This document shows positions 8,009-53,328 of a DNA stretch of 64,000 nucleotides, in pieces. A program made the translations under genes and the position numbers. Origin of the DNA: a virus; IMG/VR virus record IMGVR_UViG_3300025727_000012, positions 1-64,000 of that record. One strand, given 5' to 3'. The notes beneath the pieces were generated by a model. It had not been told where the DNA came from and made no database searches. It saw only the letters and a list, made by a program, of their open reading frames with translations. Positions within the stretch are counted from its first letter, which is position 1, and each line of letters starts with the position of its first letter.

Positions 8009-9175
8009 CTAGTTTATTGCAATAATTCTTTCGTTTGTAGTAAAATATGGTTTTGATGCGTATTTTTGTGTGGTAATCCACATCCTCTGACACTTACTAG
8101 CCTTTGGCTTTGGAGCACACAAATCAGTTAAAACAATATGACCATCGAATCCCTTGTTGTTTACGTACTCGGTTGGAGCATCAAAACAAGTTCCGCCTCC
8201 AAGGACTCTTTCAGTCTTCTTGTTCTCTCCCTTGCGCCAAGTATAAACTTTATCTTCAGCGACTCTGGAGTCGAAAGGTACGACAGTGAACTCTGCTATA
8301 TCTGACAGCTTGTTCAATTCGTCGTAAAACTTTCCTAACATTTCATCGTCTACGGAGTACGACTGATCAATCGACACTGCGATATTGGCAGTCCTGCTCG
8401 TCTTTCTACCGGAATGTATGTAGGGATATCTTCTATTTATTTTCTTGATAGAGGACATCTTGTTGGCATTCTGGCTGGTTTTAACGAAGTATCTCAAAAC
8501 CTTTTTCCAATCTATCTCGGAGTTGAAAGACCTTATCAAATCCTTTTTAACTCCAGAGGACAGAGATCCAAAAGCCTCTGCCCTGTCGCAGTCTTCAAGG
8601 GCCTGCGTGATGACGTTCTTCATCCTTTCCTTTGCCAGCTTCTGCGCGTCACTCGACGGTTCAGAATGTTCGTCTACCATTCCAGCCGCTGGAACTCCAG
8701 AATCTTCACACTGAGATAGCAGCATTTTTAGGTAGAACTCCATAGATTGCTTATCTGGATATTCCTTAAACGCTCCAAAGCCAGGTTTGCAAGCTGGCTC
8801 TCCACTAGGCGTTAAAGGCAAATCGCTAAGGTGTGCATTGATTGATAGGTCCATCGCTATGTTTCTGATCTTTCCCCAATCGCCTGGAGAAATCGACTTT
8901 GGCTGAGTCGGTATTCTCTTGGCTAAGTGCTCAAAAATTATGTGATATAGTTCGTGCTTCAAAACCGAAAGGGTCTCAGCATCACTGAGAGTCGAAAACC
9001 ACTCAGGATTGTAGCTCATAATGTAATTGCCGTCTTCTTCTATTCTTACCTGTGCGGTAGGAATGTTACTATCAGCAATCTTGGGTACAACTCTTGAAAT
9101 TGAGGCAAAAAATGGCTCTTCAAGTAGGAGTTGAAAAAGGTGCTTGCTTAGACTATATTTATTAGTTGTCTTCAT
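8009..9175 (-). CDS. VWA-like metallopeptidase-domain protein
   Basis: A 388-residue protein in two parts. Residues about 66-84 carry a zincin motif (LKHELYHIIFEHL, His74 and His78). The C-terminal third has a VWA-like fold with an incomplete MIDAS (DQSYS) followed by FTVVPFDSRV and GGGTCFDAP. This domain pair (DUF2201-type) usually sits beside a MoxR-like ATPase, as here. ATG 9175 overlaps the ATPase gene by 14 nt and is preferred to the upstream frame start because that lies deep in the ATPase gene. Expected to act as substrate adaptor or effector of the AAA+ ring; the target is unknown. Confidence 0.75.
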   Translation of the reverse strand: MKTTNKYSLSKHLFQLLLEEPFFASISRVVPKIADSNIPTAQVRIEEDGNYIMSYNPEWFSTLSDAETLSVLKHELYHIIFEHLAKRIPTQPKSISPGDWGKIRNIAMDLSINAHLSDLPLTPSGEPACKPGFGAFKEYPDKQSMEFYLKMLLSQCEDSGVPAAGMVDEHSEPSSDAQKLAKERMKNVITQALEDCDRAEAFGSLSSGVKKDLIRSFNSEIDWKKVLRYFVKTSQNANKMSSIKKINRRYPYIHSGRKTSRTANIAVSIDQSYSVDDEMLGKFYDELNKLSDIAEFTVVPFDSRVAEDKVYTWRKGENKKTERVLGGGTCFDAPTEYVNNKGFDGHIVLTDLCAPKPKASKCQRMWITTQKYASKPYFTTNERIIAIN

Positions 9176-10223
9176 CACCAAGAAGCTCCAGCATACGAGC
9201 AGACACAGATACTCCACTCTCGGTTTCAACGTCGTGCATCATTATTGTATTGTCAAGCGTGCCGGAGCCTAAGACTGTCCAAGCTTTCATTGCAATCTCT
9301 GGGTCTAGTGTCATAAAATACTCTGCAAAGTTTTGCGCTTGTTGTTCGTTGATTTCTGTATCAAAGACTTTAGAAGCGCTAATTTTCTGTAGCAGAGCTA
9401 AGTGCTCGTTGGCTGTAAATTCTAGTGTCAAATGAAACTTACCGTGCTCTATTATATCCTCTGGCTTAATAGATCTATCATAGTTCTTAACAAAGTCGAA
9501 AAACTCTATTGCTGCCTCGAAACCAACAAAAGCGGCGGTAACTTGCCTAAGTTCACTATTACATTCATCCAGCAAGTTCGTGTTGAACAAGCATTCACTC
9601 AAACGCTCCCAAGACCTTCTCGATGGATATACCTTGTTGGGCTCAAAATCACTCTCGTGCTCAAGATGCTTATCATTTGTAGAAATAAATTCTATAATTT
9701 CCTTACTGATTCCATTATCACCTGCCCACAGCATCCAATCCTCAACAGAAGGCTCGATATCAAAGACAGTCCATCGATCCAACTCCGCTGGGTCCATTTC
9801 ACCTACCTGATACTGAGAGCCATGCTCGCCGCCATTTACCGCTGCGAATATGAGAGTCTCTGGGTGCAACTGATGGCCGTTTAGCTTTCTGCTGTCCGTT
9901 AACTCGAAGATGCCTTGGCGAACTTCAATTGTCGCTCTATCAACTTCATCCAGAAACAAAACAACTGGATAATCGCAAGCGCACTTGAACCAGTCTGGTG
10001 GGTTGAATCTTGTAGAATTGGCCTCAATAACCGGCAGGCCAACAAGATCGCCCTCCGTCATCTGTGAGGCTCTGCGCTCTACTACTGGCAGGTTGATCTT
10101 TTTGGCGTACTGATACACTACGGTAGACTTGCCAATTCCGTGGCGACCGCGAAGAAGAACTGGCTTCAGCGCATCCGTAATGTATCCAACAACGCTGTTG
10201 AAAGTTCTAAAATCTACCGACAT
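9162..10223 (-). CDS. MoxR-like AAA+ ATPase
   Basis: A 353-residue AAA+ ATPase. Walker A GRHGIGKS is at residues 26-33 and Walker B VLFLDEVD at 88-95. The RQGIFELTDSRKLNGHQL pre-sensor region follows, with AVNGG as sensor 1 and DPAELDRW holding the arginine-finger region. This is the MoxR/CbbQ organisation, whose members remodel partner proteins or load metals through a VWA partner. The overlapping downstream gene encodes that partner. First gene behind promoter copy 17. A CTATTTA motif (10239-10245) is also present. Confidence 0.85.
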   Translation of the reverse strand: MSVDFRTFNSVVGYITDALKPVLLRGRHGIGKSTVVYQYAKKINLPVVERRASQMTEGDLVGLPVIEANSTRFNPPDWFKCACDYPVVLFLDEVDRATIEVRQGIFELTDSRKLNGHQLHPETLIFAAVNGGEHGSQYQVGEMDPAELDRWTVFDIEPSVEDWMLWAGDNGISKEIIEFISTNDKHLEHESDFEPNKVYPSRRSWERLSECLFNTNLLDECNSELRQVTAAFVGFEAAIEFFDFVKNYDRSIKPEDIIEHGKFHLTLEFTANEHLALLQKISASKVFDTEINEQQAQNFAEYFMTLDPEIAMKAWTVLGSGTLDNTIMMHDVETESGVSVSARMLELLGDEDN

Positions 10224-26854: not shown

Positions 26855-28426
26855 TTAAGTCTCTAAGACGGCGAAGTTTGTTGTGATCAAGACTCCCGCT
26901 ACTGACGCAGCGTTCTGTAATGCACATCTGGTCACCTTGGCGGGGTCAATAATTCCCGCCTCGAAAAAATCAACCAACTCTCCAGTCGCAAAGTTCATAC
27001 CAATTTTGGGATCGTTTATGCTTTCTAATCTCTCCAAAACCATAATTGGATCAAGTCCAGAGTTTTCGGACATCTTTACAATCGGAGCTAAGATTGCACT
27101 CTTGACTATGCCAACACCCATCTTTTGTTCTTCGTTGTCGGTCTCAACTTCTAACTCTCTGGCAATCGAAAATAATGTTATGCCCCCACCTGGGACTACC
27201 CCTTCAAGCTGGGCAGACCGAACTGCTTCTAGGGCATCCTCGATACGGTGTTTCTTCTCAATCATTTCGACTTCAGTGTGGGCACCTACATTGATTACAG
27301 CGATGCCTGATGCTAGGCGGGTTATTCTCTCTTGGATGCGCTGACACTCATCGATCGATTCTTCTTGCTTGATATCTTCTTTCAAATTCTCAATCCGCTC
27401 GTCCACTTTGCTAGCGGTGCCGTGACCGCCAACGATTGTGGTGTACCCAAGGCCAATCTCAATGGAGTGGGCGCTGCCGAAGTCAACAAGAGAAGGCGAC
27501 GAAAGATCGTCACCCTCGGATTTTCTGAAATATTTCGCACCTGTCGCGAGAGATAGGTCGCTCATAATATTTCGCCTAGTCTCCCCGTACCTAGGTGCCT
27601 TGATCGCAGCCACTTTCATAGAACCGCGAATCGTGTTCATTATCAAAGCGGCGAGGGCTTGTCCTTCAATTTCGTCCGCGACAATAATGAATGGCCTGCC
27701 TTCTCTAGCTGCGGTCTCAAGTGATGGTAAGATTTGCTCTACTCGCTCAAGTTTAGAATCCGTTATCAAAAAAACCGGGTCTTCATAGCTTGCAACCTTC
27801 CTTCTTTCGTCTGTCACAAAAGCGCCGGCGGCATAGCCAGAATCGAATCTAAAACCCTCAACAAGGTCCAGGGTCGTGTCAACAGACTTAGCCTCCTTGA
27901 TCGTGATCGAACCGTTCTTTCCAACCTTGTCCACAGCCTCCGAGATCAACTCCCCGATAGTACTGTCATTGTTTGCTGAAAGGGACGCAATGTGAGCAAT
28001 GTCAGCTTTACTGCTGATTGGTCTAGAGAGGTCCGCAAGTTTACCCACCACGGCTGCGACAGCTTTATCGATACCTCTTTTAAGCTCTGTGGCGTTAACC
28101 CTGTGGTCAAGCGCCTCGTCTGCAGAAAGAAATATCGCGCCAGCCAGTATGGTTGATGTGGTTGTGCCGTCCCCAGCCTCAATGTTGGTCCTTGCTGATG
28201 CCTCTTTTACGATCTGCGCAGCGACATCCATTACTGGGTCTTCCAAGTCCACGAACCTAGCGACGGTCACGCCGTCCTTGGTAATGAATGGCTTTTTACC
28301 CTTCTCCCTTATAATTACATTTCTACCCTTCGGGCCCAGGGTAGAACCGACGTTCTCTGATAGAATCTTGATGCCCTCTGATAATTTAGATCTTAACTCG
28401 CCTTCTGAACAGAAGTGTTTAGACAT
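26855..28426 (-). CDS. groEL: GroEL-type chaperonin
   Basis: A 523-residue group I chaperonin (host GroEL about 548). The ATP-binding blocks are intact: NVGSTLGPKGRNVII, DGVTVA and EAGDGTTT with the catalytic Asp86, plus VPGGG in the distal half. The C-terminal GGM tail is missing. Forms a double-ring folding chamber in the cytosol. The matching GroES-like gene is 16 kb away at 44322-44645, not adjacent as in bacteria. It has its own near-consensus promoter at 28456-28483. Confidence 0.95.
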   Translation of the reverse strand: MSKHFCSEGELRSKLSEGIKILSENVGSTLGPKGRNVIIREKGKKPFITKDGVTVARFVDLEDPVMDVAAQIVKEASARTNIEAGDGTTTSTILAGAIFLSADEALDHRVNATELKRGIDKAVAAVVGKLADLSRPISSKADIAHIASLSANNDSTIGELISEAVDKVGKNGSITIKEAKSVDTTLDLVEGFRFDSGYAAGAFVTDERRKVASYEDPVFLITDSKLERVEQILPSLETAAREGRPFIIVADEIEGQALAALIMNTIRGSMKVAAIKAPRYGETRRNIMSDLSLATGAKYFRKSEGDDLSSPSLVDFGSAHSIEIGLGYTTIVGGHGTASKVDERIENLKEDIKQEESIDECQRIQERITRLASGIAVINVGAHTEVEMIEKKHRIEDALEAVRSAQLEGVVPGGGITLFSIARELEVETDNEEQKMGVGIVKSAILAPIVKMSENSGLDPIMVLERLESINDPKIGMNFATGELVDFFEAGIIDPAKVTRCALQNAASVAGVLITTNFAVLET

Positions 28427-32036: not shown

Positions 32037-32362
32037 ATATCTGAAAACTCCTCCGCTATTAAATCAAAAATCTCATCAGACTCTTCGTCTGTCAGCTTAA
32101 AAAGAGCTTTGTTGAACTTGCCCCGCTCATAGATCGAATGAGACTTGTCTATTTTGGCTTTCCCTTGTCTTGCCAGGTTTCTCTTAACGTCAAGAAAAAA
32201 CTCCACAATTCTAGGGTCCTTCTCAATGTATCCCGTCACGATGCTTTGGAAGAACTGTAACTGTGTTAGGCCGTCATACCTCAGTCTTATTTTGAGGTCT
32301 GCGTGACGTTTATCTGTATCAGCAAAGACAACTTTCTTTAAGTTCTTTCCATATTCAGGCAT
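32033..32362 (-). CDS. Conserved phage protein
   Basis: A 109-residue helical, basic protein (LRYDGLTQLQFFQSIVTGYI, RNLARQGKAKIDKS) with an acidic end. The start resembles ribbon-helix-helix-like small DNA-binding proteins (KKVVFADTDKRHADLKIRLR), weakly. Overlaps both neighbours by 1-4 nt. Confidence 0.6.
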   Translation of the reverse strand: MPEYGKNLKKVVFADTDKRHADLKIRLRYDGLTQLQFFQSIVTGYIEKDPRIVEFFLDVKRNLARQGKAKIDKSHSIYERGKFNKALFKLTDEESDEIFDLIAEEFSDI

Positions 32363-33366
32363 TATTTACCAACCCTACTGAGTATGTGTGTGTTGCTCTC
32401 CATCTGCCCAGCAGAAGTTTGGGCGATGAACTGGGCTTTTGCTTGTAATTCTGTGATGTTTCTAGCTCCAGAGTAGGACAATCCAGACTTTATGTTCCTT
32501 GTCAAATTGTCCAGTATCTCAATCACGCAACCTTTGTATGGTATAGTTGTCGAAATACCCTCCAGCGATCTCGCTTCGCCCCTCCAGTCCTTCTGGGCCT
32601 CCACGCTGGCCATCCCCCTGTATACCTTGTATTTCTTGCCGGCGGTGGATTGAAACACCTCACCGGGACTCTGCTCCGTGCCGGCGAGCATCGAGCCAAG
32701 CATAACAAAGTCGGCACCGGCAGCCAAGGCCTTCACTATGTCTCCCGCAGTCTTGACACCTCCATCGGCGATGATTGGAGCACCATCCACATCCCTGCAG
32801 TTCAAGACAGATTGGAAGGTCGGGACACCGTGCCCTGTCTGTATCCTCGTAGAACAAATAGACCCACCGCCGATGCCTATGCGAACTGCGTCCGCGCCCC
32901 ACTCGGAGAGATCCTTATACCCCTCCGGTGTGGCCACGTTACCAGCAATAAGTGTAAGGCCAGAGCCGTATTTATCTTTGATAGCCTTTAGGGCCCTCTC
33001 GACTAAGACGTGGTGACCGTGAGCGACGTCCAGACAAAAGGTCGTCGTGCCGGTTTCGCCATTAAGAAACTCGATCCTATTCATGAAATCGCCTGTGACG
33101 CCAACTGCAGCGGCTGCAAAGCTCGGTGTCATTCTTGATTGCTCAACCTCGTCACAGTACCTGTGTGTGATTGCAAGGTTGCCAAGTTCTCCAAAGATCA
33201 AAGACATTTGCAGCCCCGTAACCGTATCCATCGGGCTAGATACTATCGGACTAGCATACATCTTACCAGCTAAGTCCCTAGACAAATCGACCTCCGAGCG
33301 GGACTCGATGTCGCTATATTTGGGGGCTAATAGCACGTCATCAAAACTATGCACCTGATTTTTCAT
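32362..33366 (-). CDS. guaB: IMP dehydrogenase / GMP reductase-like enzyme
   Basis: A 334-residue TIM-barrel enzyme of the IMPDH/GMPR family. Key parts: FDDVLLAPKYSDIES, SPMDTVTG, LIAGNVATPEGY, the catalytic loop GIGGGSICSTRIQTGHG with Cys171, ADGGVKTAGDIVKALAAGAD, GSMLAGTEQSPGE and YRGMAS. The CBS pair of cellular IMPDH (about 120 residues) is absent. The GTEQSPGE and YRGMAS blocks are closer to IMPDH than to GMPR. It would raise guanine-nucleotide supply. Confidence 0.85.
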   Translation of the reverse strand: MKNQVHSFDDVLLAPKYSDIESRSEVDLSRDLAGKMYASPIVSSPMDTVTGLQMSLIFGELGNLAITHRYCDEVEQSRMTPSFAAAAVGVTGDFMNRIEFLNGETGTTTFCLDVAHGHHVLVERALKAIKDKYGSGLTLIAGNVATPEGYKDLSEWGADAVRIGIGGGSICSTRIQTGHGVPTFQSVLNCRDVDGAPIIADGGVKTAGDIVKALAAGADFVMLGSMLAGTEQSPGEVFQSTAGKKYKVYRGMASVEAQKDWRGEARSLEGISTTIPYKGCVIEILDNLTRNIKSGLSYSGARNITELQAKAQFIAQTSAGQMESNTHILSRVGK

Positions 33367-35850: not shown

Positions 35851-38800
35851 CTATGCTAACATCTTGAAAGTGCCTGATATAGACCTGGTACTGAACCCCC
35901 ACTGGAGACTCCAGTCAAGCTTGGCCATGTATGGGCGATTTAAGTAAACTTTATCTTTCTCTGGCTTGACTCCCCAGCACTTAATCGATCTCTGCTCGGA
36001 GTTGGAGTCAATGACCTTGACAATGTAGAAGTCTTTACCGTTTTTCGTCTTCTTCTTCGCAACCTCTCTGGGAATAAACCAAACGACTTGCAAACCCTCA
36101 TCGAATTCAGAGATTGGAGGGATGTGCAGCTCATCCAATCTCCTCTGAACGTGTTCATCAACAACCAGATTCAGTGGGAAGACTCCCGTAAGATCAACGA
36201 GATACTGAAGTTTTTCCTCTTCCGTGAACTCTCCCTCTGGGGCATATAACCTTATGTTGTCCTCCAAGTTTTTAAGCTTTCGAGGCCGGTCGCATGCGAC
36301 GGCTGACCAGAAGTGCTTGAGGCCCGTGAATCTTTCGTCCATCAGGCAATTCAGGGTCTGACTCTTTATCAAGGCGTCCAAACTTTTCTTGTTGAGTTTC
36401 GAATAAGTGATGTTGTCGTTAAATATAAACTCCTCGATCGTGTCGAACGGCCTGTTGTCTAGTATTTGTCGAATCGCAGATATACCTAGACCCTTGATAG
36501 ACGAAAGCGGTTGGATCAATGTTTTTTTGTCTTCGCTTATCTCCCAAGTTATGCCAGATGTATTTATGTTCAAAGGTTCGATATTGTACCCATAGGATTT
36601 CGCAACATTGATCGCTCGCTCTTTCCGTTTATCCGGCTCCTTATCTAAAAACGCGGCCATCCAGCACTCGGGGTAATAATTCAGTAACCAGGCGCACTGG
36701 TATGAAAGAATACAGTAGGAAACAGCGTGAGACTTGTTGAAACCATATCCTGAAAAGTATTCAAACTTTTCCCAAAGCTCCTTGGCTTGGTGGCCCTTCA
36801 TTCCCTTCTCGATACAACCCTCGCGAAACTTGACATAAATCTTTTCTTTTTCTTCATCCGCTGATGAGCCCAGCCCTGTCTTGGTCAGCAGTTTTCTCAG
36901 CTTGTTCCCCTCATCTAGCGTCACATTCTTGCCGAGCTTGTGAGCTAGCATAGCAATCTGCTCTTGAAAGATTAAAAAACCGTATGTTTCTTCGGTGACT
37001 TCTCTGACTTGTTTGTTGAGGTAGTCCACGCTACTTGGATCTTGCTTTGCGCCGACATACATCTTATCAACGCCAGCCGACAATGGGCCAGGTCGATAGA
37101 TGGAGGTGATTGCAGCGAGGTCTGTGATATTATTGGGCAGTGCCTGCTTGCAAAAGGCTTGTGCTCCGGCTTCTGTAAATTGGAATATCCCCGCCCACCT
37201 TCCTTCGTGAAACACGTTTTTCCACACTTGGTCATCATCTAGGTCGATCCTCTCGGGGTGTAACCTTTCGTCGTAGAATCTCTTGATATCGGTGAAGGAC
37301 GGGTCATCCACACCTTCATACCTCACCAAAACGTGGCGTATTGCGTCCTCCATCATCCTCAAGGAAGCGAGTCCCAGGATATCAAACTTGATGAAACCCA
37401 TTGGTTCCAAGTGTCGCACGTTCATACCCTCAGACCAAGGCGTTTGGCGGACACCCCCTGAGTTGATAAGCGGCATCCACTGGTCTAGGTTCTCTCCCAC
37501 AACAACACCACCAGCGTGGCGTGAAGCTGAGCGTGTCTGACCATAGAGAGCATTTACGTGCGTTTCAATGTGAGGATACTTCTTCAAAAAATCTTTTAAT
37601 GTCTCGGAGTACATCATAAGCTCTTCGAAGGTGGGATTGTACACTCCAGCAGTGATACCGCGTGCTTTTTTGGCCAGCGGTGTTGCCTCGAATATCATCT
37701 TGCTAGTGACGTTGTTCACTTCCGAGAAAGATATGTTATAAAACTTTGATATGTCCTTTACCAAAGATCTCAACTGTAACGTGTTCCAGTTTGTAATGGG
37801 GACCACGGTGTTGTCTCCCCACTCGTCAATGAGTTCTTCCTTTAAAGTCATCGGGTCCGAAACATCGTAGTCAATGTCTGGGTAGCCGGACCCACCTTTT
37901 GTCAAAAAGCGCTCAAATTGGAGCCCGTACTTGATCGGATCTACTTGGGTGATGTCTAGGGCATAGGCGACCAGAGAGCCTGCGGCAGAGCCTCTGCCGG
38001 CCCCCACAAGCTGCTTTACGGTCGCTCTGTCGGCGATTGCTTTCATCGTCAGAAAATACTTACTAAATCCTCTAGACTCGATAATCTTGCACTCATATTT
38101 CAGCCTTTCGATATAATCGGGATTGGAAACGAATCCACGCACTCGTGCGCCCTCGATGCAAAGTCTTGCGAGAGCTTGTCCTGGCGAGTAGCCGTCGGGA
38201 ACAAACATATCAGGTAGACGAACCTCGTTATCAGGCAAAAAATCCTCAATGTCATTAAAAGCAATCCGGTGAGTACTCTTTATAGAATTAAGTACCAAAT
38301 TGTCGTCGTATTGAAATCCACATTCTTTAGAGTATTTCTTATAACTCTCCCACATCTGGTCGCCATTTTTTGGATAAAGTTCATAACCAACCTCTTCAAC
38401 TCCATCGGGCAGTTCATTAGACATCCATTCTGGGCGTCTGCCTAGGAAGCCTAGGCGCTTATAAAGTTCTCTGTCCTTCCATACGTCTGGCGAATAGTAG
38501 TGAGAGTCCGCCGTAGAAATCAGGTCAATGCCAAATTCGTGATGCATTTGTATGATGTAGGTATTCAGTTGATGCTGCTCTGGCACATTATTCCACTGCA
38601 GTTCTCCATACCATCTCTGTCCAAATATTGACTGCATCTTCTGGGTAGTCTCTCGAAAAGCATTGAGGACAGCATCTTCCCCCTTGTCTTTATTCTGCCA
38701 GAAATTACCTGCATAAACCCCGCCTAAACAGGCAGAGGCCGCGATGACGCCCTCATTGTGCCTCTTCAGCATCGCATAGTCAACTCTAGGGTAACGATAA

Positions 38801-39288
38801 AAGTTATCACTAGTGTACGACTTTGAGATCATTTTGAAAATGTTCTTCAAACCGACCTGATTCTGAGCTAGTAGTATGAGATGACTTCTTCTATTTAGAG
38901 TTGACTTTACGAGCTTTTTAGATTCCTCATCTTCAACCGTAGCGCCGCTCTGGAGTTCCCTCTTCTTTGTAGATTTGTTCTTTGCTAAAGCGCGAACCTT
39001 GTCGTATTCCTCTTTCCAATTGGCCACAGATGGAATGAAGTAGGCTTCACAGCCGAAGATAGGCTTGAAGTCCCTGCCCTCAGACTTCATCTTCTTTGCG
39101 TGTAAAACCTGGTATGCTAGTCCGTTAGCGTTTCCGTGATCCGTGAGGGCCAGGGCGTCCATACCGTTTTCGTATGCAAAGTCCATATGCTCGGAAGGGT
39201 ATCCCAGAGCGTCAAAAAGCGAGCCGGCGACCGAATGTGCGTGCAGTCCAACGAACGGAATATCGGATTTATTCCTCTGTGAGTTCAT
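35851..39288 (-). CDS. dnaE: DNA polymerase III alpha subunit (DnaE type)
   Basis: An 1145-residue C-family DNA polymerase. Residues 12-60 start the PHP domain (GLHAHSVAGS, ALALTDHGN). The palm has GAGRGSAAGSLVAYAL and GYPDIDYDVSDP with the catalytic Asp residues. GVVVGENL, YRPGPLSAG and IFQEQIAMLAHKLG follow, then the helix-hairpin-helix (SSIKGLGISAIRQILDN) and an OB-like end. The main replicative polymerase candidate; 3'-5' exonuclease must come from elsewhere or the PHP domain. It shares the genome with a family-A polymerase. Confidence 0.93.
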   Translation of the reverse strand: MNSQRNKSDIPFVGLHAHSVAGSLFDALGYPSEHMDFAYENGMDALALTDHGNANGLAYQVLHAKKMKSEGRDFKPIFGCEAYFIPSVANWKEEYDKVRALAKNKSTKKRELQSGATVEDEESKKLVKSTLNRRSHLILLAQNQVGLKNIFKMISKSYTSDNFYRYPRVDYAMLKRHNEGVIAASACLGGVYAGNFWQNKDKGEDAVLNAFRETTQKMQSIFGQRWYGELQWNNVPEQHQLNTYIIQMHHEFGIDLISTADSHYYSPDVWKDRELYKRLGFLGRRPEWMSNELPDGVEEVGYELYPKNGDQMWESYKKYSKECGFQYDDNLVLNSIKSTHRIAFNDIEDFLPDNEVRLPDMFVPDGYSPGQALARLCIEGARVRGFVSNPDYIERLKYECKIIESRGFSKYFLTMKAIADRATVKQLVGAGRGSAAGSLVAYALDITQVDPIKYGLQFERFLTKGGSGYPDIDYDVSDPMTLKEELIDEWGDNTVVPITNWNTLQLRSLVKDISKFYNISFSEVNNVTSKMIFEATPLAKKARGITAGVYNPTFEELMMYSETLKDFLKKYPHIETHVNALYGQTRSASRHAGGVVVGENLDQWMPLINSGGVRQTPWSEGMNVRHLEPMGFIKFDILGLASLRMMEDAIRHVLVRYEGVDDPSFTDIKRFYDERLHPERIDLDDDQVWKNVFHEGRWAGIFQFTEAGAQAFCKQALPNNITDLAAITSIYRPGPLSAGVDKMYVGAKQDPSSVDYLNKQVREVTEETYGFLIFQEQIAMLAHKLGKNVTLDEGNKLRKLLTKTGLGSSADEEKEKIYVKFREGCIEKGMKGHQAKELWEKFEYFSGYGFNKSHAVSYCILSYQCAWLLNYYPECWMAAFLDKEPDKRKERAINVAKSYGYNIEPLNINTSGITWEISEDKKTLIQPLSSIKGLGISAIRQILDNRPFDTIEEFIFNDNITYSKLNKKSLDALIKSQTLNCLMDERFTGLKHFWSAVACDRPRKLKNLEDNIRLYAPEGEFTEEEKLQYLVDLTGVFPLNLVVDEHVQRRLDELHIPPISEFDEGLQVVWFIPREVAKKKTKNGKDFYIVKVIDSNSEQRSIKCWGVKPEKDKVYLNRPYMAKLDWSLQWGFSTRSISGTFKMLA

Positions 39289-44973: not shown

Positions 44974-46836
44974 TTATACGAATTTTATTTCACAAGCGCC
45001 GCCGGCGCAGGCGATTTCTCCTGAAAGATTGGTATTATCTTCCTCTTCGGAAACTTTCGTCAGATCTATATTCTTCAGAGATGCCATCATGGCTTCGTAG
45101 GTCTCCTTGGAACAATCCTCAAAGGGAGCCTGTGTATAGGTCCCCCCGTTATAAGGAAGCACGGAAAGACCATTGTAACTGGACCTGTTGTCCCACATCC
45201 ACTCGCCGACATCGACCCACTCCGCATCTTTTATTGATACGGTTGCTGAAACATTATGCGTGTTCTGCCCCTTGCGAAAACCTGGTTTTATCCACTCGGC
45301 AGTTACAGTCTTCACCCTCTTGAGCAGTTGTAATGCCGACTCTGTTCTCATAATAGAGCCCTCTGGGGCCTTTTGGGGAATAGAAATAACAGCGGTAGTA
45401 TGAGGGCTAAAGTACTCGTCCTCGACAAGCTCCGGGTGATTGTTCAATAAGTGTGTGTAGATAGGTTCGCTCTTACCTACACGGATTCTGCGAATATAGT
45501 AGTCATTGTGCCAGGCGTGAATGCCTGAAGACGTGCCGAGGGTCAAGCTTGTAGTTCCTGCTGGCTTTACGCAAGTTGTTCTGGCTGCTGGATTGATGCC
45601 AACCAACGCTGCGACTCTTGCGTTTTCTTTCCTTACACCGTTGGCTGCTTCCTTCATATCAAGCTCTAAAACAGCACCAGAGGCAATACCAGTCATAGAA
45701 ACACCAATAAGTGCGTCTTTTTCTGTTGTTCTACGCCAAATATCACGAAGATAATGGAAGTCGGTGTAGCTGGCTTGCAATGTTCCGATGAAGGTTGCTG
45801 TTCTGACTCTCTCATTAAGATCCTCTTGGGACTCTACGTTGGATACGTTGACTTCTGTAAGGTTGCAGAACTGATATGGGCGCAAACCGATCTCACAGCA
45901 AGGGTTGGTTCCCCAGTCTTTATCGTTTGAAAAATAAAAACCGGGTTCTCCAGCACCTGAAGCCTTCACTCTGTCCCAGAGGTTCATAAAATATTCTTTA
46001 TCGATCTTGTGGCGCAACAACACAACAGAGTTGTTAGCTCTACCTCGTTGTGGGCTGGTTTCCCACCAGTTTCCTGTTTTTGCTGCAATCATATCCTCGT
46101 CATCTGCTGAAAACAAGGAAATAAGCGCTGCTCTCCTAATGCCACCTGCAAGAACTGCGTCTGCGATGTGGCAAATCATATCATGAACTTCGATTGTAGA
46201 AAGTTTATCTCCGTTCTCGCAATTTGAGAGGATGCCTTCTAACTTGACCAGACACTCTTTAAGAGGTTGTGGTCCTGGGGCCTTACCACCTGAAGTGATT
46301 AGTGCCGCTCCCTTTGGTCGGATATCCGTAAAATCGAAACGAAGGTGTGAGCCACCCTGAAAATAAGAGCGAACAAGGGCTTTCACCGCGTCGGCCCATC
46401 CCTCGATGGAGTCGTTAACTAGGAAACGTCGCGTCCTGTTCATATTTGGTCGTGTAACCTCTGGCAATTTCTCTACATGATGCTTTTGGACTGAGTATCC
46501 GACACCCGTGCCCCCAAGAAGAAGAAACATTACTTCTCCGAAGCAGCGCCAATCATCAGCAGGCATAAAGGCACAGTTGAAAATGCGGTTGGGGGCCACT
46601 TCGATTGGTTTGCCGCCGAATTGCATTGACCTCATCGAAGGTAAAACTTTTCTATCGAAGACCATTTTGTAAGCCTTGACGATTTGAAGTTCCAGTTCGG
46701 GAAACTTTTTTAGATGCATGTTCATATTGCGCGTTACTAGTTCGTCCCACGTTTCTCTTCTTTGTTTACTTTCCAAGTATCTTGCGTACTTCATATGTAC
46801 TGTGATTTCTGATAATATCTGATTTGACAATTCCAT
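44974..46836 (-). CDS. nrdJ: Ribonucleotide reductase, B12-dependent type (class II)
   Basis: A 620-residue ribonucleotide reductase resembling the monomeric adenosylcobalamin-dependent RTPR. LLLGGTGVGYSVQ lies in the N-terminal part; NPCCEIGLRPYQFCNLTEVN holds the active-site residues; PAGTTSLTLGTSSGIH follows. CAGGACE at the end (Cys610 and Cys615) is the redox pair. No small R2 subunit gene is seen, consistent with class II. It makes dNTPs without oxygen but needs host B12. Start overlaps the helicase stop. Confidence 0.88.
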   Translation of the reverse strand: MELSNQILSEITVHMKYARYLESKQRRETWDELVTRNMNMHLKKFPELELQIVKAYKMVFDRKVLPSMRSMQFGGKPIEVAPNRIFNCAFMPADDWRCFGEVMFLLLGGTGVGYSVQKHHVEKLPEVTRPNMNRTRRFLVNDSIEGWADAVKALVRSYFQGGSHLRFDFTDIRPKGAALITSGGKAPGPQPLKECLVKLEGILSNCENGDKLSTIEVHDMICHIADAVLAGGIRRAALISLFSADDEDMIAAKTGNWWETSPQRGRANNSVVLLRHKIDKEYFMNLWDRVKASGAGEPGFYFSNDKDWGTNPCCEIGLRPYQFCNLTEVNVSNVESQEDLNERVRTATFIGTLQASYTDFHYLRDIWRRTTEKDALIGVSMTGIASGAVLELDMKEAANGVRKENARVAALVGINPAARTTCVKPAGTTSLTLGTSSGIHAWHNDYYIRRIRVGKSEPIYTHLLNNHPELVEDEYFSPHTTAVISIPQKAPEGSIMRTESALQLLKRVKTVTAEWIKPGFRKGQNTHNVSATVSIKDAEWVDVGEWMWDNRSSYNGLSVLPYNGGTYTQAPFEDCSKETYEAMMASLKNIDLTKVSEEEDNTNLSGEIACAGGACEIKFV

Positions 46837-48212
46837 TAATTACTTTTCTCCTTCTTAAACGTCTTGTACTTCTCTTTTAGGTGCTCGTGTTGTTGCTTCG
46901 CAGCGTTAACAATCAAGTCCTCCACACTCTCGGTCATGGCCGGCAACACCTTTATCTTAACGCAGCTTGTGTCCATAAAGATGGGGTAAATAATCCCATC
47001 TGGTCCGTTTCTATTTTTGGCGACAAATATTCTGCCTCCGTTGGTAGTTTTATCTTTGACTGTCCTTGAAACAGAGAAGATAAAATCAGCCACGAAGCAT
47101 TTATTGAATGCCTCTGAAATAGACTCCATTGTAATGACCTCGGCGTTAAGACCTGATCTATTTGTTTGCGAAGCTGTCCATATTGGACAACTATTAGCTT
47201 GAGAAATTCCTCGCAACTCCTCGTAAATAGTCTCTAGTTGGTGTCTTTTCTCATCTTTCGAAGAAGATTCTGGTCTTATCAAATCAGCATAGTCAACAAT
47301 TATCAAATCAGGCTCGAAACCGCGATTTATTAATTTTTCCAAGTGGTTTTTTATTGTGACGATCGACGCGGATCTGGTCGGATATTCCTTTACGATCAAT
47401 GCGCCGGCGATGTCTTTTATCTCGTCATACACTTTTTCTTTGAAAACTGGCAAGTTGTTAAGCTCTATTCCGGTGATGCAACTATCATACCTCAAAGACA
47501 CAACAGCGTCCGATAACTCAAGAGTGTAATGAACTACTTTCTTGCCTGCTTTTACGGCGGCTGAGCCTAGATGTGCTAGGACCATCGACTTTCCTGCACC
47601 AGTTGGTGCGATCACAACCCCTAGTTCACCCTTACCTAGGCCGCCTTTGGTGATTTTATCAATATCCACCCAACCACTCGAAACTGGGTTTCTGGCTTTG
47701 AGTTCGAATCTCTTTTCAAAGTCTTTTAAATAATCATACCCGAAATCATTATCGCTGCCAAGAATCAGCGCGTTGTCGATCAGGCTCCTAACTTCGTCAA
47801 AAGAACAACGCTTCATCAAATCAACTGACTTAATCAGAGCTTCTTTTAGCTTCTGTTTTCTACAGAACTCAAGAGCAGTGTTCTTGATGAACTCAGAACC
47901 CTCCACTTCAAGCTCAGAGGAAACCACCCTTGCGTAATAATCTCTTATTCTTATTTGAACAGATTCCGGCTCGGTTACAAGTTCTGTTCTTACGATAGCC
48001 CTCATGATCTTCTCTGTGGGGTGGACCTTGTATTTCTTGCGATAGCTGGAAATCTTACGGACGAACACCTGCAGATGTTTTAACTCCAAAAAGTTAATGT
48101 CCAAGACTTCAAACATTCGGTCTGCAAATGGTCTGTCTCTCAGCATCAGTTGACACAAGTCCTCTTGGAAAGATTTTCCAAATTTGGAGAAGTCTTCTTT
48201 TTCTTGATTCAT
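46836..48212 (-). CDS. Replicative DNA helicase (DnaB/gp41 type)
   Basis: A 458-residue RecA-fold hexameric helicase. Residues 1-150 form the helical N-terminal domain. Walker A APTGAGKS lies after GGLGKGELGVVI, Walker B is DLIIVDYADLI, and TASQTNRSGL is the sensor region. Unwinds DNA ahead of the fork, like T4 gp41 or DnaB. ATG 48212 (GGAAGGAACACA upstream) fits the promoter at 48236-48264. Confidence 0.88.
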   Translation of the reverse strand: MNQEKEDFSKFGKSFQEDLCQLMLRDRPFADRMFEVLDINFLELKHLQVFVRKISSYRKKYKVHPTEKIMRAIVRTELVTEPESVQIRIRDYYARVVSSELEVEGSEFIKNTALEFCRKQKLKEALIKSVDLMKRCSFDEVRSLIDNALILGSDNDFGYDYLKDFEKRFELKARNPVSSGWVDIDKITKGGLGKGELGVVIAPTGAGKSMVLAHLGSAAVKAGKKVVHYTLELSDAVVSLRYDSCITGIELNNLPVFKEKVYDEIKDIAGALIVKEYPTRSASIVTIKNHLEKLINRGFEPDLIIVDYADLIRPESSSKDEKRHQLETIYEELRGISQANSCPIWTASQTNRSGLNAEVITMESISEAFNKCFVADFIFSVSRTVKDKTTNGGRIFVAKNRNGPDGIIYPIFMDTSCVKIKVLPAMTESVEDLIVNAAKQQHEHLKEKYKTFKKEKSN

Positions 48213-48235
48213 TGTGTTCCTTCCTGGTTTTAACC

Positions 48236-48264
48236 AGATTAGCATAAGCTTTTGGGAGGGTCAA
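48236..48264 (-). promoter_or_regulatory. Host-like sigma-70 promoter of helicase gene
   Basis: TTGACC-17 bp-TAATCT on the coding strand, 23 bp before the helicase ATG. Would drive the helicase-RNR run. Confidence 0.7.
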
Positions 48265-48265
48265 C

Positions 48266-49228
48266 CTATTCGGGTGTTACCGTATGATTAAACGACGCGA
48301 ACAGGTCAGACAGTCCTATCTGGCCGAATCCGTCTTTAGACATCATCGTCCTGAAGTTGGTTTTATTGAACAGTGGGACAAAGCTGTCGATCTGGTCTCT
48401 TATTTTGTTCTTGGTCTGTGGGGATATACTAGGAGACGACAACTGCATCAATCCATAGTTTCCAGCAATCACTTCCTGATTCAATAGTATGTTCTCATAG
48501 ACCTTGATCTTGGAACTTTCAGCCAGGGTTTGGCAGTACCTTAACAACTCATATATACTGTAGTCCTTCTCTTCCGCCAGGAAAGAGAACCTTTTTGCGA
48601 CAGTGGGAAGGCCAACACCCTGAACCCCTTTCAAACCGTCACTTACATCTCCCGCAACAGCCCTCGCCAAAGCAAAGTTGTTCGGGTGTATACCGTGCTT
48701 CTCAACAACACTGTTCTTGTTAAGGACTTCTTTTTGTGTAGGTCTGTAAAGAACTGTCTTTTCATCGAGCAATTGGATGAAGTCCTTATCGCTCGACACA
48801 ATGATCTTTTGCCACTCTTTGTACTTTGTGAACTTACTGACAAAAGCGATAACGTCATCAGCTTCTATCGCGGGCTCCATAAACTGGATTACGGGCGAGT
48901 TGTTCAGATACTCAATAGACCTCAGTTGTTGTCTAATCTTATTGTCCGTCTCCTGTTCTGCGGTGAAGTTCGCGTTCACCCGATTCAACCTGAGAGGCTT
49001 TCTGCCGGATTTATAGTTCTTATTGGCAGATCTTCGTCTTTGAGATCCGCCTGCTCCGTCCCAAACTACAATTATTTGATCTGGCTTAACCTCCCTAGAG
49101 AGCTTGTTCAGGACTTTCAAGAACCCGCAGATGCCTCCAATGTGTTCACCACTATAAGAGGTAGACGGGTCTGATATATACGCCCTCAAGTACTGATTGT
49201 GCGCATCTACGATCATCGCTCTCTTCAT
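48266..49228 (-). CDS. 5'-3' exonuclease (FEN / T4 RNase H type)
   Basis: A 320-residue flap endonuclease-like protein. AMIVDAHNQYLRAY starts the PIN-like fold; VVWDGAGGSQRRR, AIEADDVIAFV and IVSSDKDFIQLL carry the metal-binding acids; GDVSDGLKGVQGVGLPTVAK is the H3TH motif. It removes RNA primers and flaps at the fork. ATG 49228 is chosen over an upstream frame start that would lie in the terminator. Confidence 0.88.
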   Translation of the reverse strand: MKRAMIVDAHNQYLRAYISDPSTSYSGEHIGGICGFLKVLNKLSREVKPDQIIVVWDGAGGSQRRRSANKNYKSGRKPLRLNRVNANFTAEQETDNKIRQQLRSIEYLNNSPVIQFMEPAIEADDVIAFVSKFTKYKEWQKIIVSSDKDFIQLLDEKTVLYRPTQKEVLNKNSVVEKHGIHPNNFALARAVAGDVSDGLKGVQGVGLPTVAKRFSFLAEEKDYSIYELLRYCQTLAESSKIKVYENILLNQEVIAGNYGLMQLSSPSISPQTKNKIRDQIDSFVPLFNKTNFRTMMSKDGFGQIGLSDLFASFNHTVTPE

Positions 49229-49242
49229 AAAAACTCCTAAAC

Positions 49243-49286
49243 AAAAAAAAGCACCCCAAAGCATCTTTTTTAACACTTTGGGGTGC
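49243..49286 (-). terminator. Strong intrinsic terminator after uvsX
   Basis: An 11-bp perfect stem (GCACCCCAAAG / CTTTGGGGTGC, 49251-49261 and 49276-49286) with a 14-nt loop, followed on the minus strand by T8. Lies 26 bp past the UvsX stop and just before the exonuclease gene. Confidence 0.9.
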
Positions 49287-49311
49287 GGGGCCAAGAAATA
49301 ATCGAAGATTA

Positions 49312-50436
49312 TTATTCCTCGGCAGGTGGGACCTCTTCACTATCGTAATAGTCAGCAGCATTGCCTTGTTTCTTATCGAATTTCATTATAACATCATCCT
49401 CGATAATTTTCAACACAGACTCTTTAAACTTATCGCTTTGAAGTTTATTAGTCCATTGCTTTCTTTGGAAGCGCTCTTCGGTGCCATCATTGTGGACAAG
49501 GGTGTACCAAGCTCCTGAAGATTTCAGTCTTTCTGAGATCTGAATCGCGTCAAACCAGCTTTCCTCGTCCTGAACTCCGATATCTTCGTCTCCCCATAGG
49601 ATCTTAAAGTTGCAGGTTCGACCAGCGGTCCCGAAACGAGACTTTTCGATCTTCACTTTAACTTCAGATCCGATTCGGAAACCATTGTCATCCAATACGA
49701 AACTAGCCTTTGCTTTTCTGCCAGTTAGCCAGATCCTCAAAGAATATGCGTAGTGCATAGCTTTACCGCCGGGCGTAACATATGGAGTTGTCATTGCCTC
49801 CGACGGTGAGCGAGTTATATTCGTCTTCAATTGGTTTAAGACTAAAAACGTAGCGTTACTATTCGCAATGGGCACTGTTAGTTTAGACATGCCCTTAGAG
49901 AGAATCCTAGCCTTTACTGCCATCGATGACAAAGGATTAAAATCCCCTTCAACGTCAGAGACTGACGGCGTTAGAGCGAGAGAGTCCCAAATAAAGAGCC
50001 ATCGGTTCTCCGTACCTAACAGTTCTTCAATCGTTTCTAGAACAAACTCCACGGACTCAGCTTGGATATACATCAAACCGTTCAGCGAACAACCTGCCCT
50101 TTCCAAAAAGGAAGGGTCGATTGCAGACTCCGAGTCGAAATAAACGACGTCGATGCCCATATCTTGAGCATTGGCTGCAACCTGTGCTGCTAGAAAGCTT
50201 TTGCCGGTAGCTTCAAGACCTGCAATTTCACAGATCTTGCCCACAGGGATGCCCGCTGAACGACCTTTGCAAATTATGGAGTCTAACCACTTCGACCCAG
50301 TAGGAATCCAATCCGTAACTTCGGTTGGATTTTGGTTGTTTAAGTTGTGAGCAACCTCCCTGCCAGCCTTCTTGTTTATGAGGCGCATTGCCTCTTCTAG
50401 GGAAACATTCCCCGGTCTTAGTTTTGCCACTTTCAA
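49312..50436 (-). CDS. uvsX: UvsX/RecA-type recombinase
   Basis: A 374-residue recombinase. Walker A is GLEATGKS within CEIAGLEATGKSFLAAQVA, Walker B is WLFIWDSLAL, and LVLNQLKTN is loop-adjacent. TPGGKAMHYAYSLRIWL follows as in RecA/UvsX. It pairs ssDNA with homologous duplex for recombination-dependent replication and repair. Downstream of the SSB gene; the terminator follows. Confidence 0.92.
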   Translation of the reverse strand: MKVAKLRPGNVSLEEAMRLINKKAGREVAHNLNNQNPTEVTDWIPTGSKWLDSIICKGRSAGIPVGKICEIAGLEATGKSFLAAQVAANAQDMGIDVVYFDSESAIDPSFLERAGCSLNGLMYIQAESVEFVLETIEELLGTENRWLFIWDSLALTPSVSDVEGDFNPLSSMAVKARILSKGMSKLTVPIANSNATFLVLNQLKTNITRSPSEAMTTPYVTPGGKAMHYAYSLRIWLTGRKAKASFVLDDNGFRIGSEVKVKIEKSRFGTAGRTCNFKILWGDEDIGVQDEESWFDAIQISERLKSSGAWYTLVHNDGTEERFQRKQWTNKLQSDKFKESVLKIIEDDVIMKFDKKQGNAADYYDSEEVPPAEE

Positions 50437-50445
50437 GTCTTACTC

Positions 50446-51210
50446 CTAATTTTTGCCCAAGAGATCGTTAAACGCAGCATCCACAGAGTCTGTAGAAGAC
50501 TCAACAGCCATAGTCTTGGGGGCCGAGTATTTCTCTACCTGATTATCCGTAGAGTCGGCATCCAAGAAAGTGTCCAGTAACGATGAAACTTCACCAGAAG
50601 ACTTTCGTTCAAAGAGGGAATCAAAAGCAGGGATCGACTCAAGCAATTCTGCACAGCGGTCATCACCACCGGTTGAGTCGTCGCACAGAGTCGTCTTTCG
50701 AGGCCGAGGACGGATGTCTGTCCGTGGGAAGCTGGCTCCAGGCTGCTTTCCGTACATAATCTTAAGATCGTTTCCGCTTTCAGGGTCTGTAATATCCCCG
50801 TAGTCTGGGTCGAAGACAATCTTTAGCAAACTTTCGTATGCCATCTTGCCGTAACCCCAGATTCTAACGCCCTCAGACTCTTCTCCTCGGACCAAAACTG
50901 GAGAAAAGAATCGCTTCTTGGCAAAGAGGTCCTTCGCCATCTTCTTACTATCATCTGTACCTTCGTTCCAGAGCTTGCTTGCAAAATTACAAACCGAGCA
51001 CTCGTCTCCGAAGTTATGCTTAGGGCACAAGAAACCACCCTGTGCTACGTTATAGTGGAAGTGATATTCCTTAAACGGATCTCCATCTGCGGTCGGAACA
51101 ATGCGAATATTGCTCTCTCCATCCACAGGCTTCCAAAAAACGTTCTTGGAATCGCCCTTGCCGGTTAAGTTGTTAAGCTTCTCTTTCATTCTATCCATAT
51201 TCAGTGCCAT
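50446..51210 (-). CDS. Single-stranded DNA-binding protein (T4 gp32 type)
   Basis: A 254-residue protein with gp32 features: basic N-terminus (MALNMDRMKEKLNNLTGKGD), OB fold with SNIRIVP and EYHFHYNV, a zinc site CPKHNFGDECSVC, DLFAKKRFFSPVLV and an acidic C-terminal tail (SSTDSVDAAFNDLLGKN). It coats ssDNA and recruits partners through the tail. ATG 51210 has AGGAGG 7 nt upstream. Confidence 0.88.
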   Translation of the reverse strand: MALNMDRMKEKLNNLTGKGDSKNVFWKPVDGESNIRIVPTADGDPFKEYHFHYNVAQGGFLCPKHNFGDECSVCNFASKLWNEGTDDSKKMAKDLFAKKRFFSPVLVRGEESEGVRIWGYGKMAYESLLKIVFDPDYGDITDPESGNDLKIMYGKQPGASFPRTDIRPRPRKTTLCDDSTGGDDRCAELLESIPAFDSLFERKSSGEVSSLLDTFLDADSTDNQVEKYSAPKTMAVESSTDSVDAAFNDLLGKN

Positions 51211-51289
51211 TATATTACCTCCTTGTGGTATTGTTTTTTTTGCACTCATCGCTATAGCAGGTCGGCAAATTTCCCGACCAACTCTCTCT

Positions 51290-51318
51290 AATATATCTTA
51301 TGCTTTATTTTATGTCAA
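51290..51318 (-). promoter_or_regulatory. Host-like sigma-70 promoter of SSB gene
   Basis: TTGACA-17 bp-TATATT on the coding strand, 80 bp before the SSB ATG. Its -35 lies in the last codons of the tubulin-like gene. Confidence 0.78.
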
Positions 51319-52147
51319 GTTGAATTTGTGAAGAATATGAAACTACATATCCGTAGTTTGTGTCGTACTCTGTCGAGTAGATTCCATAACTAATCTTATT
51401 TTTATTGATGTTCTTGCCTTTTATCTGAGTTATGATCTTTTTTCTCAAGGTCTTGTCCTCATCAATTTGTTTCTCTGACATACCGTAATAGTAGCGGGTC
51501 TCATTTGGGCTGTCAAGGGGAAAGAACATCTTTTCTTCACCGGTGGTGGGATCAAGCAGGCCAATGGTGCAAATCCTGTTCCCAATCGCAGGGCCAGAGA
51601 ATGTATCAGTAACAGAGTCTATATGGTTGAATACGTTGATTCCGTGGAATGTTGCTGAAATCATTTGATTTAACTCGCCATAGTAGTTCCTAAGCGGAAC
51701 CTCTTGCATACAGCCCTCCACACTGTCGTTGGAAACGAGGAACATCTTTTCAAAAACGCCCGACCTTGTGTATTCTTGCAAGACATGTCGAACAGTTCGC
51801 TCAAGCAGTCTCTTTTTCTCGTTCAACAACGAAGCATCCGGCTGAACATACAAGACGTTGATATTTGACTTGTGGTGTATTTGCTGGAGGATCGATAAGG
51901 TGATCGCAGAGATGTCGCTGGCCCCATTAACTACAAACAGGACATCTTTTGTGATTCTAGCCAAGAAACGTTTTACACTCGGGCAACTAGATTCGTACAA
52001 CTCTGGCGAGTCCTGGGGTTGTACCCTGAAATACTTCTTTTCGTCTGACTCTTTAGAGTCGATTAAATATACTTTGTACTGTGGGAAGGCTGAAAAAGAC
52101 CTCGCGACATTACAACCGGCGGTACCCAGGCCTATTATTGTATCCAA
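51305..52147 (-). CDS. Tubulin/FtsZ-like Rossmann protein
   Basis: A 280-residue protein following the FtsZ/tubulin N-terminal order: MDTIIGLGTAGCNVARSFS (family 'GVGG-G-N'), YKVYLIDSK, FVVNGASDISAITLSILQQI at the place of the GTP-binding GGGTGTG loop, then INVLYVQPD, helix LLERTVRHVLQEYTRSG and KMFLVSNDS. The GGGTGTG signature itself is lost, so GTP binding is uncertain. Similar proteins occur in T4-like marine phages. TTG 52147 is the likely start (GAGG 8 nt upstream). Could form or regulate filaments (inference). Confidence 0.62.
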   Translation of the reverse strand: MDTIIGLGTAGCNVARSFSAFPQYKVYLIDSKESDEKKYFRVQPQDSPELYESSCPSVKRFLARITKDVLFVVNGASDISAITLSILQQIHHKSNINVLYVQPDASLLNEKKRLLERTVRHVLQEYTRSGVFEKMFLVSNDSVEGCMQEVPLRNYYGELNQMISATFHGINVFNHIDSVTDTFSGPAIGNRICTIGLLDPTTGEEKMFFPLDSPNETRYYYGMSEKQIDEDKTLRKKIITQIKGKNINKNKISYGIYSTEYDTNYGYVVSYSSQIQLDIK

Positions 52148-53328
52148 TTGACTTTCCTCATTTCACCGAAATTCTTGCCGATACTTAGATTTACCCTGTA
52201 GTCTCCGAACCTAGTAGCCCCAAAGATGCTCAAGATTTCCATCAGGTCTGCTTTGTCTGAAGCGCAACAGTCCACAACTATCGAATCGTGCATTAAGAAT
52301 ACGATATTACTTCTTCTTTTTTCAAGAAAATTATTAACTTTTATTGCTTGTTCAATACACATGTCACTGCTTGTGCTTTGGACTATATAGTTCAGCGCCA
52401 CTCTGTCGTCTGCCTCAATATAGCGCGAGAACGGCGTTCTAACGCCCGCCTTGTGCCGATAGTTGTCTTTGACCCAATCCCTGTTGTAAAGGCGCTCCAG
52501 TGCCCGATCTCGCGCTTCAGGGTTGTATAACCAGGCAAAAGTGCGCTTCTTAATCTCCTCTCTGGTCGTTGAGTGTCCCGAAAGGTTTTGAAGATTCCAT
52601 TCGTGGATATCTAATTGTGGTTGGGGCTTTCCAGAAAGTGCTAGGAGGGTTCTCAACTCTGCTGCGTTAAAATCCAGTTCAACAAACAGGTCGTTTCTTG
52701 GCTTGACATACTTCCTTAAATCCTTGTCCAAGTTAAGTATCGGAAATGATCTTTTGTTGGTGGTAAGTCTTCCCGTCTTTGAACCAAAAACATTATACGA
52801 GACACAGTGTTCTATACCTTTGACCTTTTTGAGGAACCTCCTAACTTTCTGATCGTGGTAATCCTTTTTCAATCGTGCAAAGTCTATGTTGAGTTCTTCA
52901 CAACCAATATCGTCAACTAGCCTTACAGCACCCAGCAAATGATTGTAGTTTTCTGGCTTTTTGTAATTCTCAAATACGTGTTGAGTTATTATGTTTCTAC
53001 ATTCTAAAAGCTCACATATGTGCTTTTCAGGTATGAGGTCGAACAAACAGTGATCTCTCATGTCTATATCTGCAGTCTTTATAGATTCGGAAAACGCTTT
53101 GAGTTTTTCATTTATTTTCTCGAACCTTTCGGATATTACTTCGGGGCAGTGGTCCGCGAGTGGAGCCCCAGAGACATAGAGATTTGCAAATTCAATATCT
53201 TTTCCGAAAAGAGATGAAGTGTAGCCCCAAGTTCTTTTACATTTTTCATCAATATCTTCATACTTCAGCGCTCCAGCGCTGTAAAAAGCTACACACTCTT
53301 TTTTGTCGTCGACAACCTGAAAGTACAT
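52135..53328 (-). CDS. Family-A DNA polymerase (short, divergent)
   Basis: A 397-residue protein with the three PolA polymerase motifs: A, VELDFNAAELRTLLALSG; B, REEIKKRTFAWLYN; C, FLMHDSIVVD. FGSKTGRLTTNKRSFPILNL matches the palm/fingers entry. No exonuclease domain fits in the short N-terminal 180 residues. It would be a second DNA polymerase beside DnaE, perhaps for repair or primer processing. Motif A lacks the usual DYSQIE wording but keeps the Asp and Glu. Confidence 0.8.
   Translation of the reverse strand: MYFQVVDDKKECVAFYSAGALKYEDIDEKCKRTWGYTSSLFGKDIEFANLYVSGAPLADHCPEVISERFEKINEKLKAFSESIKTADIDMRDHCLFDLIPEKHICELLECRNIITQHVFENYKKPENYNHLLGAVRLVDDIGCEELNIDFARLKKDYHDQKVRRFLKKVKGIEHCVSYNVFGSKTGRLTTNKRSFPILNLDKDLRKYVKPRNDLFVELDFNAAELRTLLALSGKPQPQLDIHEWNLQNLSGHSTTREEIKKRTFAWLYNPEARDRALERLYNRDWVKDNYRHKAGVRTPFSRYIEADDRVALNYIVQSTSSDMCIEQAIKVNNFLEKRRSNIVFLMHDSIVVDCCASDKADLMEILSIFGATRFGDYRVNLSIGKNFGEMRKVNWIQ

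Follow-up and report, generated by a model that had tools for sequence, protein, structure and literature searches.

The replication operon of an uncultivated virus contains a gene whose product is predicted to adopt a reduced form of the FtsZ/tubulin fold. FtsZ and tubulin proteins are defined by GTP-driven filaments. We propose, with a confidence that falls a little short of even chances, that the gene represents a distinct, stripped-down family of this fold, whose members bind nucleotide, are defective in its hydrolysis and serve as static scaffolds or adaptors at the replication sites of T4-superfamily phages. The gene lies in a window of 64,000 nucleotides (the whole stretch of DNA that was analysed, i.e. 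positions 1 to 64,000 of IMG/VR record IMGVR_UViG_3300025727_000012); its coordinates, neighbours and conserved parts are collected in Table 1. If the proposal is true, the family shows what the FtsZ/tubulin fold does without its engine, and a cytoskeletal fold becomes tied to phage DNA replication.

Evidence for the fold comes from structure. An AlphaFold2 model of the protein (P0001), built on an 18-sequence alignment, reached pLDDT 92.5 and pTM 0.91, and a second AlphaFold model, that of a relative (L018, 44% identical; 36 sequences), displays the same elements with pLDDT 92.9 and pTM 0.90. When the models were compared to PDB with Foldseek, the top 50 matches of P0001 comprised only FtsZ or TubZ (best E 1.0e-12, TM 0.64-0.71) and those of L018 only FtsZ, TubZ and CetZ (best E 1.5e-12); TM was 0.64-0.72 over the matches of both models. 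The best viral predicted structures found by structure search are annotated as FtsZ, cell division protein or tubulin. Both models and the Foldseek matches show two domains, the nucleotide domain and a C-terminal beta domain, along with the core helix H7. An order of strands and helices resembling that of FtsZ had been noticed in a preliminary description made from the sequence, and is borne out by the two confident models with their PDB matches at E about 1e-12. These predictions support membership of the protein in the FtsZ/tubulin superfamily by fold.

The reading frame with its TTG start, as well as its location between the genes for single-strand DNA-binding protein (SSB) and polymerase, had been given in the same description; both agree with the ORF list, the starts of relatives and the Pfam matches of the neighbours (gp32 E 2e-11; family-A polymerase E 2e-12), with the addition of the strand, which is minus. 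TTG is a credible start codon because the aligned start residue of relatives is an ATG codon and because a Shine-Dalgarno-like GAGG is present upstream. The 13-nt overlap with the polymerase gene points to translational coupling of the two genes, and an overlap of 1-16 nt is found in 60 of 77 relatives.

A direct scan of IMG/VR yielded 18 relatives, whose full-length identity is 33-46%, together with one further match, a 100% identical fragment, and an alignment-based search of IMG/VR raised the number to at least 588. The protein has no significant match in Pfam, PHROGs or NCBIfam, and tblastn gave no match in 50,697 GenBank phage records; these hundreds of genes are therefore unannotated. 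A non-exhaustive search of the open-access literature found no description of the family. For 43 close pairs, dN/dS lies between 0.05 and 0.13, with a median of 0.077. The gene is thus under strong purifying selection and its product is functional, not decaying. Together with the number of relatives and the invariant gene order, this value means that the frame is not a chance ORF.

The sole match in a cellular genome (L197), 42% identical and with unchanged operon order, comes from a WOR-3 MAG, CP070664.1. Here, part of a phage replication operon (L197:7500-13200) is situated amid bacterial sequence, with N runs on both sides. A cellular origin of the gene, or a clue to the host, was rejected for this locus, as it is most likely a mis-scaffolded fragment of a phage operon.

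The surroundings of the gene are constant. Among relatives with enough flanking sequence, the upstream gene codes for family-A polymerase in 77 of 77 cases and the downstream one for gp32-type SSB in 82 of 82, and the operon extends into ribonucleotide reductase (Pfam). Contigs were also selected by SSB alone, using the best 80 matches of an SSB alignment scan in place of a single-protein DNA-polymerase query, which gave only 6 loci. The gene was present in 71 of the 72 testable contigs; the single exception (L223) has a different sequence upstream of SSB. Such a position means co-expression, not contact. The polymerase itself is only 397 amino acids long and has HDS instead of HDE in its motif C, HDS being found in L197 as well.

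Of the long records with the FtsZ-fold gene, eight were tested for gp23 capsid genes, and all eight have them; the window itself encodes UvsX, gp41-type helicase and gp32 (Pfam, PHROGs). Judged by gene content, the carriers are uncultivated T4-superfamily phages. The closest cultured operons are those of Flavobacterium Immutovirus and Microcystis phage Mel-JY01; two small unrelated ORFs occupy the slot between polymerase and SSB in cultured relatives (L214:1346-2318, L213:3675-4393). A homologue was sought in RM378, Mel-JY01 and Immutovirus, and its presence there was rejected, as the searches came out empty. Since Immutovirus and Mel-JY01 share the operon without the gene, the replisome does not generally need its product, and such relatives offer a natural comparison.

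Table 1. Features of the FtsZ/tubulin-fold gene and its operon (window positions; counts refer to 146 distinct family members)
Feature	Position	Strand	Remarks
FtsZ/tubulin-fold gene	51305..52147	-	ORF, 280 aa; TTG start at 52147, stop at 51305
Shine-Dalgarno-like GAGG	52156..52159	-	8 nt 5' of TTG start, within polymerase gene; direct sequence reading
FtsZ-fold gene start overlapping polymerase gene end	52135..52147	-	13 nt; ORF coordinates
Family-A DNA polymerase	52135..53328	-	397 aa; PF00476 E 2.3e-12; upstream partner
gp32-type single-strand DNA-binding protein	50446..51249	-	PF08804 E 2e-11, phrog_1192 E 6e-24; downstream partner
UvsX-type recombinase	49312..50436	-	phrog_97 E 8e-57
5'-3' exonuclease (FEN/RNase H type)	48266..49294	-	PF02739 E 1.6e-29
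DnaB/gp41-type replicative helicase	46836..48245	-	phrog_19 E 1.5e-65
T1 loop IIGLGTAGC, residues 4-12	52112..52138	-	G6 140, G8 143, G11 139, C12 134 of 146
T4 loop NGASDIS, residues 74-80 (N74..S80)	51908..51928	-	after strand S4 (68-73), before helix H4
QEYTRS motif, residues 124-129	51761..51778	-	end of helix H5; Q124 145, Y126 141, R128 146, S129 144 of 146
Asn140, T6 position	51728..51730	-	end of S6; 135/146; putative base contact
Asn160, helix H7	51668..51670	-	135/146; putative base contact
Short linker, residues 175-191, replacing T7 loop and helix H8	51575..51625	-	no helix in either model

Residues and loops were counted in 146 distinct members of the family. The T1 loop is glycine-rich, with the family form GLGxAGC (G6, G8 and G11 in 139-143 of 146 members). 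The T4 loop has the consensus GGSGxISG, with S80 in 124 members, and the canonical signature (GGGTGTG or GGGTG(S/T)G) occurs in 0 of 146, so its survival in some members was rejected. The loop NGASDIS, which had been noticed in the GGGTGTG position, is among the more degenerate versions. The T4 loop thus seems, from the alignment, to be changed to a glycine/serine type, not simply lost. PhuZ of phiKZ (PHIKZ039), an active tubulin in the literature, has GGASGST as its T4 sequence; a changed T4 loop alone therefore does not mean that GTP binding is lost. Asn140 and Asn160 match by position the residues of FtsZ and tubulin that contact guanine. Because this pair is kept, along with the T1 glycines, nucleotide binding is probably not lost, and the family as a whole probably binds nucleotide. 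Both positions are included in the best hhalign segment, in which residues 135-170 are paired with 160-196 of E. coli FtsZ at a non-significant score.

The T7 loop and helix H8 provide the catalytic acid to the neighbouring subunit. In the present family, H7 and S7 are separated by 18 residues in 146 of 146 members, and this segment contains no invariant acidic residue. This constant spacing, with no helix in the models and no invariant acid, indicates that T7 loop and H8 are gone, a feature additional to those in the preliminary description and evident from the models and the 146-member alignment. Hydrolysis is probably defective. A loss or change of GTPase activity, as suggested earlier, is plausible in view of the family-wide T4 change and the missing T7/H8, with the restriction that binding of the nucleotide is probably kept. 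If T7 is truly absent, as modelled, the family differs from FtsZ in at least one point of its mechanism.

Outside these loops, the stretch QEYxRS at 124-129 is the most conserved of the family. Together with YPQY (21-24), it would be placed, by parallel alpha/beta topology, on the face away from the nucleotide. In the P0001 model, strand 265-272 is followed only by a tail of 8 residues, without a C-terminal helix H11/tail of the PhuZ/TubZ type, and the FtsZ-type C-terminal peptide that binds FtsA/ZipA is not conserved in the alignment of relatives.

Several known systems can be compared. With FtsZ the family shares the two-domain fold, the order S1-H1-S2, S4-T4-H4-S5-H5-S6-H6-H7 and C-terminal sheet, the T1 glycines and polar residues at both base-contact positions; it differs in the T4 signature, in the lack of T7 loop/H8, in the shortened T3/H2/H3 region and H9, in overall sequence (8-14% identity in structural alignments), in the lack of an FtsA/ZipA-type C-terminal tail and in the location of its gene in a phage replication operon. 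PhuZ and phiKZ TubZ from nucleus-forming jumbo phages are likewise phage-encoded tubulin folds, and GGASGST is the closest written form to NGASDIS and GGSGxISG. However, the filaments of PhuZ are dynamic (PMC4244570) and its T7 carries a catalytic aspartate (PMC3678025), whereas our family lacks T7/H8 and occurs in T4-type (gp23) phages. The nearest precedent is FtsZl1, described by Makarova and Koonin in 2010, another divergent FtsZ-tubulin family, in which T6-H7 and the filament-forming C-terminal parts are not recognised and filament formation is doubted (PMC2875224). FtsZl1 proteins are cellular, retain a recognisable T4 motif, contain a coiled-coil domain and are linked to vWA and membrane genes (PMC2875224), while the present proteins possess H7 and the C-terminal sheet and have a changed T4. 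We do not assign the family to FtsZ, tubulin, TubZ or PhuZ, as its T4 and T7 regions depart from what those names imply.

According to our proposal, the protein would be a product of the replication operon, probably translated together with the family-A DNA polymerase, and its usual pocket would bind a guanine nucleotide or another one. As the catalytic site of the neighbouring subunit could not be completed, no dynamic GTP-burning filament would arise, and the protein may instead serve where phage DNA is replicated, as a static scaffold or adaptor gated by nucleotide. Its partners might be itself or polymerase, SSB or UvsX, contacted through the conserved face carrying YPQY and QEYxRS. It is possible, with the balance tilting somewhat against it, that a tubulin fold without GTP hydrolysis and dynamic filaments has become a dedicated part of the replication complex almost throughout a large T4-type clade, assisting polymerase and SSB as a cofactor or as a scaffold gated by nucleotide. 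A nucleotide-binding, hydrolysis-defective mini-tubulin serving the replication complex is the best-supported reading; a part in a phage spindle, a nucleotide sensor and a poison of FtsZ all lack specific support.

Filaments of phage tubulins that position DNA are known (PMC4244570), and the protein could polymerise, alone or with a second phage tubulin, and position replicating phage DNA as PhuZ does. Such a second tubulin does exist. A PF00091 search of sister genomes revealed a different tubulin family (alignment A2, e.g. L105) of 344-410 amino acids, with T1 GGGGGK, T4 GGGGGTGS and invariant T7 acids D249 and D252, matching solved CetZ/FtsZ by sequence with E 1.7e-6. It is present at no fewer than 107 loci in IMG/VR (L105:5001-6092, L100:1027-2121 and 100+ others, L105-L184), has no match in GenBank phages and only a weak one, to phrog_17961, in PHROGs; in L100 its gene adjoins one for a gp55-like sigma factor. 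This second family is undescribed and near-canonical in T1, T4 and T7. It resembles the FtsZ-fold family in being a phage tubulin found in some of the same genomes and aligned collinearly with it by hhalign, T1 through H7, but differs in length, in its own T1, T4 and T7 forms and in its sequence match to FtsZ/CetZ. Six sister records encode both proteins. In three records of 159-190 kb the FtsZ-fold gene is present without the second tubulin, and in several of 140-280 kb the reverse holds, with the reservation that records in IMG/VR may not be complete; the two are therefore not an obligate pair, and such a pairing was rejected. The pocket face of the FtsZ fold is retained, but T7/H8 are missing in all members, co-occurrence with the second tubulin is not obligatory and a long C-terminal tail of the PhuZ/TubZ kind is lacking, and we consider a spindle role unlikely.

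Conserved pocket residues, the loss of polymer-specific catalytic parts and the continuation of the operon into ribonucleotide reductase would also suit a soluble nucleotide-binding domain which tunes polymerase, helicase or dNTP supply and forms no polymer. A conserved catalytic acid/base cluster typical of enzymes was not recognised, though, and we know of no such use of the tubulin fold, which makes this function improbable.

Phages encode FtsZ inhibitors, FtsZ is the closest solved fold, and a subunit with pocket but without T7/H8 could in principle block one end of an FtsZ filament. The preliminary description had accordingly considered a mimic that poisons FtsZ, i.e. a decoy binding or capping host FtsZ protofilaments and halting division during infection. 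The gene is nevertheless a core member fixed in the replication operon across its clade, not a variable host-takeover gene; the low identity to FtsZ leaves no obvious mimicry of interface residues, and a conserved FtsZ-peptide-like tail is absent. We regard this role, too, as improbable.

By sequence comparison, homology of the mini-tubulin family to FtsZ could not be proved, and that route was rejected: phmmer/hmmsearch against PDB gave nothing significant, as did Pfam, PHROGs and NCBIfam; with PF00091, two of 18 members reached only E 0.0073, under the curated cut-off; and hhalign gave E 0.048 against FtsZ and 0.03 against the second phage tubulin, with the best decoy at 0.009 and a control of FtsZ against the second phage tubulin at 1e-12. 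As these scores are no better than decoys, our claim concerns the fold and rests on structure. An ordinary Rossmann-type enzyme with superficial similarity to FtsZ, for which the non-significant profile comparison and sub-threshold Pfam matches of P0001 (TrkA_N E 0.06, Pyr_redox_2 E 0.17) might speak, is very improbable, since the match to FtsZ extends over its full length in both models, H7 and C-terminal sheet included, and the structure prediction and structural search proposed beforehand as a check placed no Rossmann enzyme in either top 50; the outcome named in the preliminary description as a refutation, a plain Rossmann enzyme, thus did not occur.

Elsewhere in the window, positions 35851-39288 encode a 1145-aa DNA polymerase III alpha of bacterial type (PHP, NTPase, finger and HHH domains), which is unusual for a T4-type phage alongside a family-A polymerase. 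A chaperonin (Cpn60, E 3e-68) and an enzyme of IMP dehydrogenase/GMP reductase type (E 4e-91) are encoded at 26855-28426 and 32362-33366, respectively, and at 8009-10223 a DUF2201 metallopeptidase/vWA gene overlaps a MoxR/dynein-type AAA gene.
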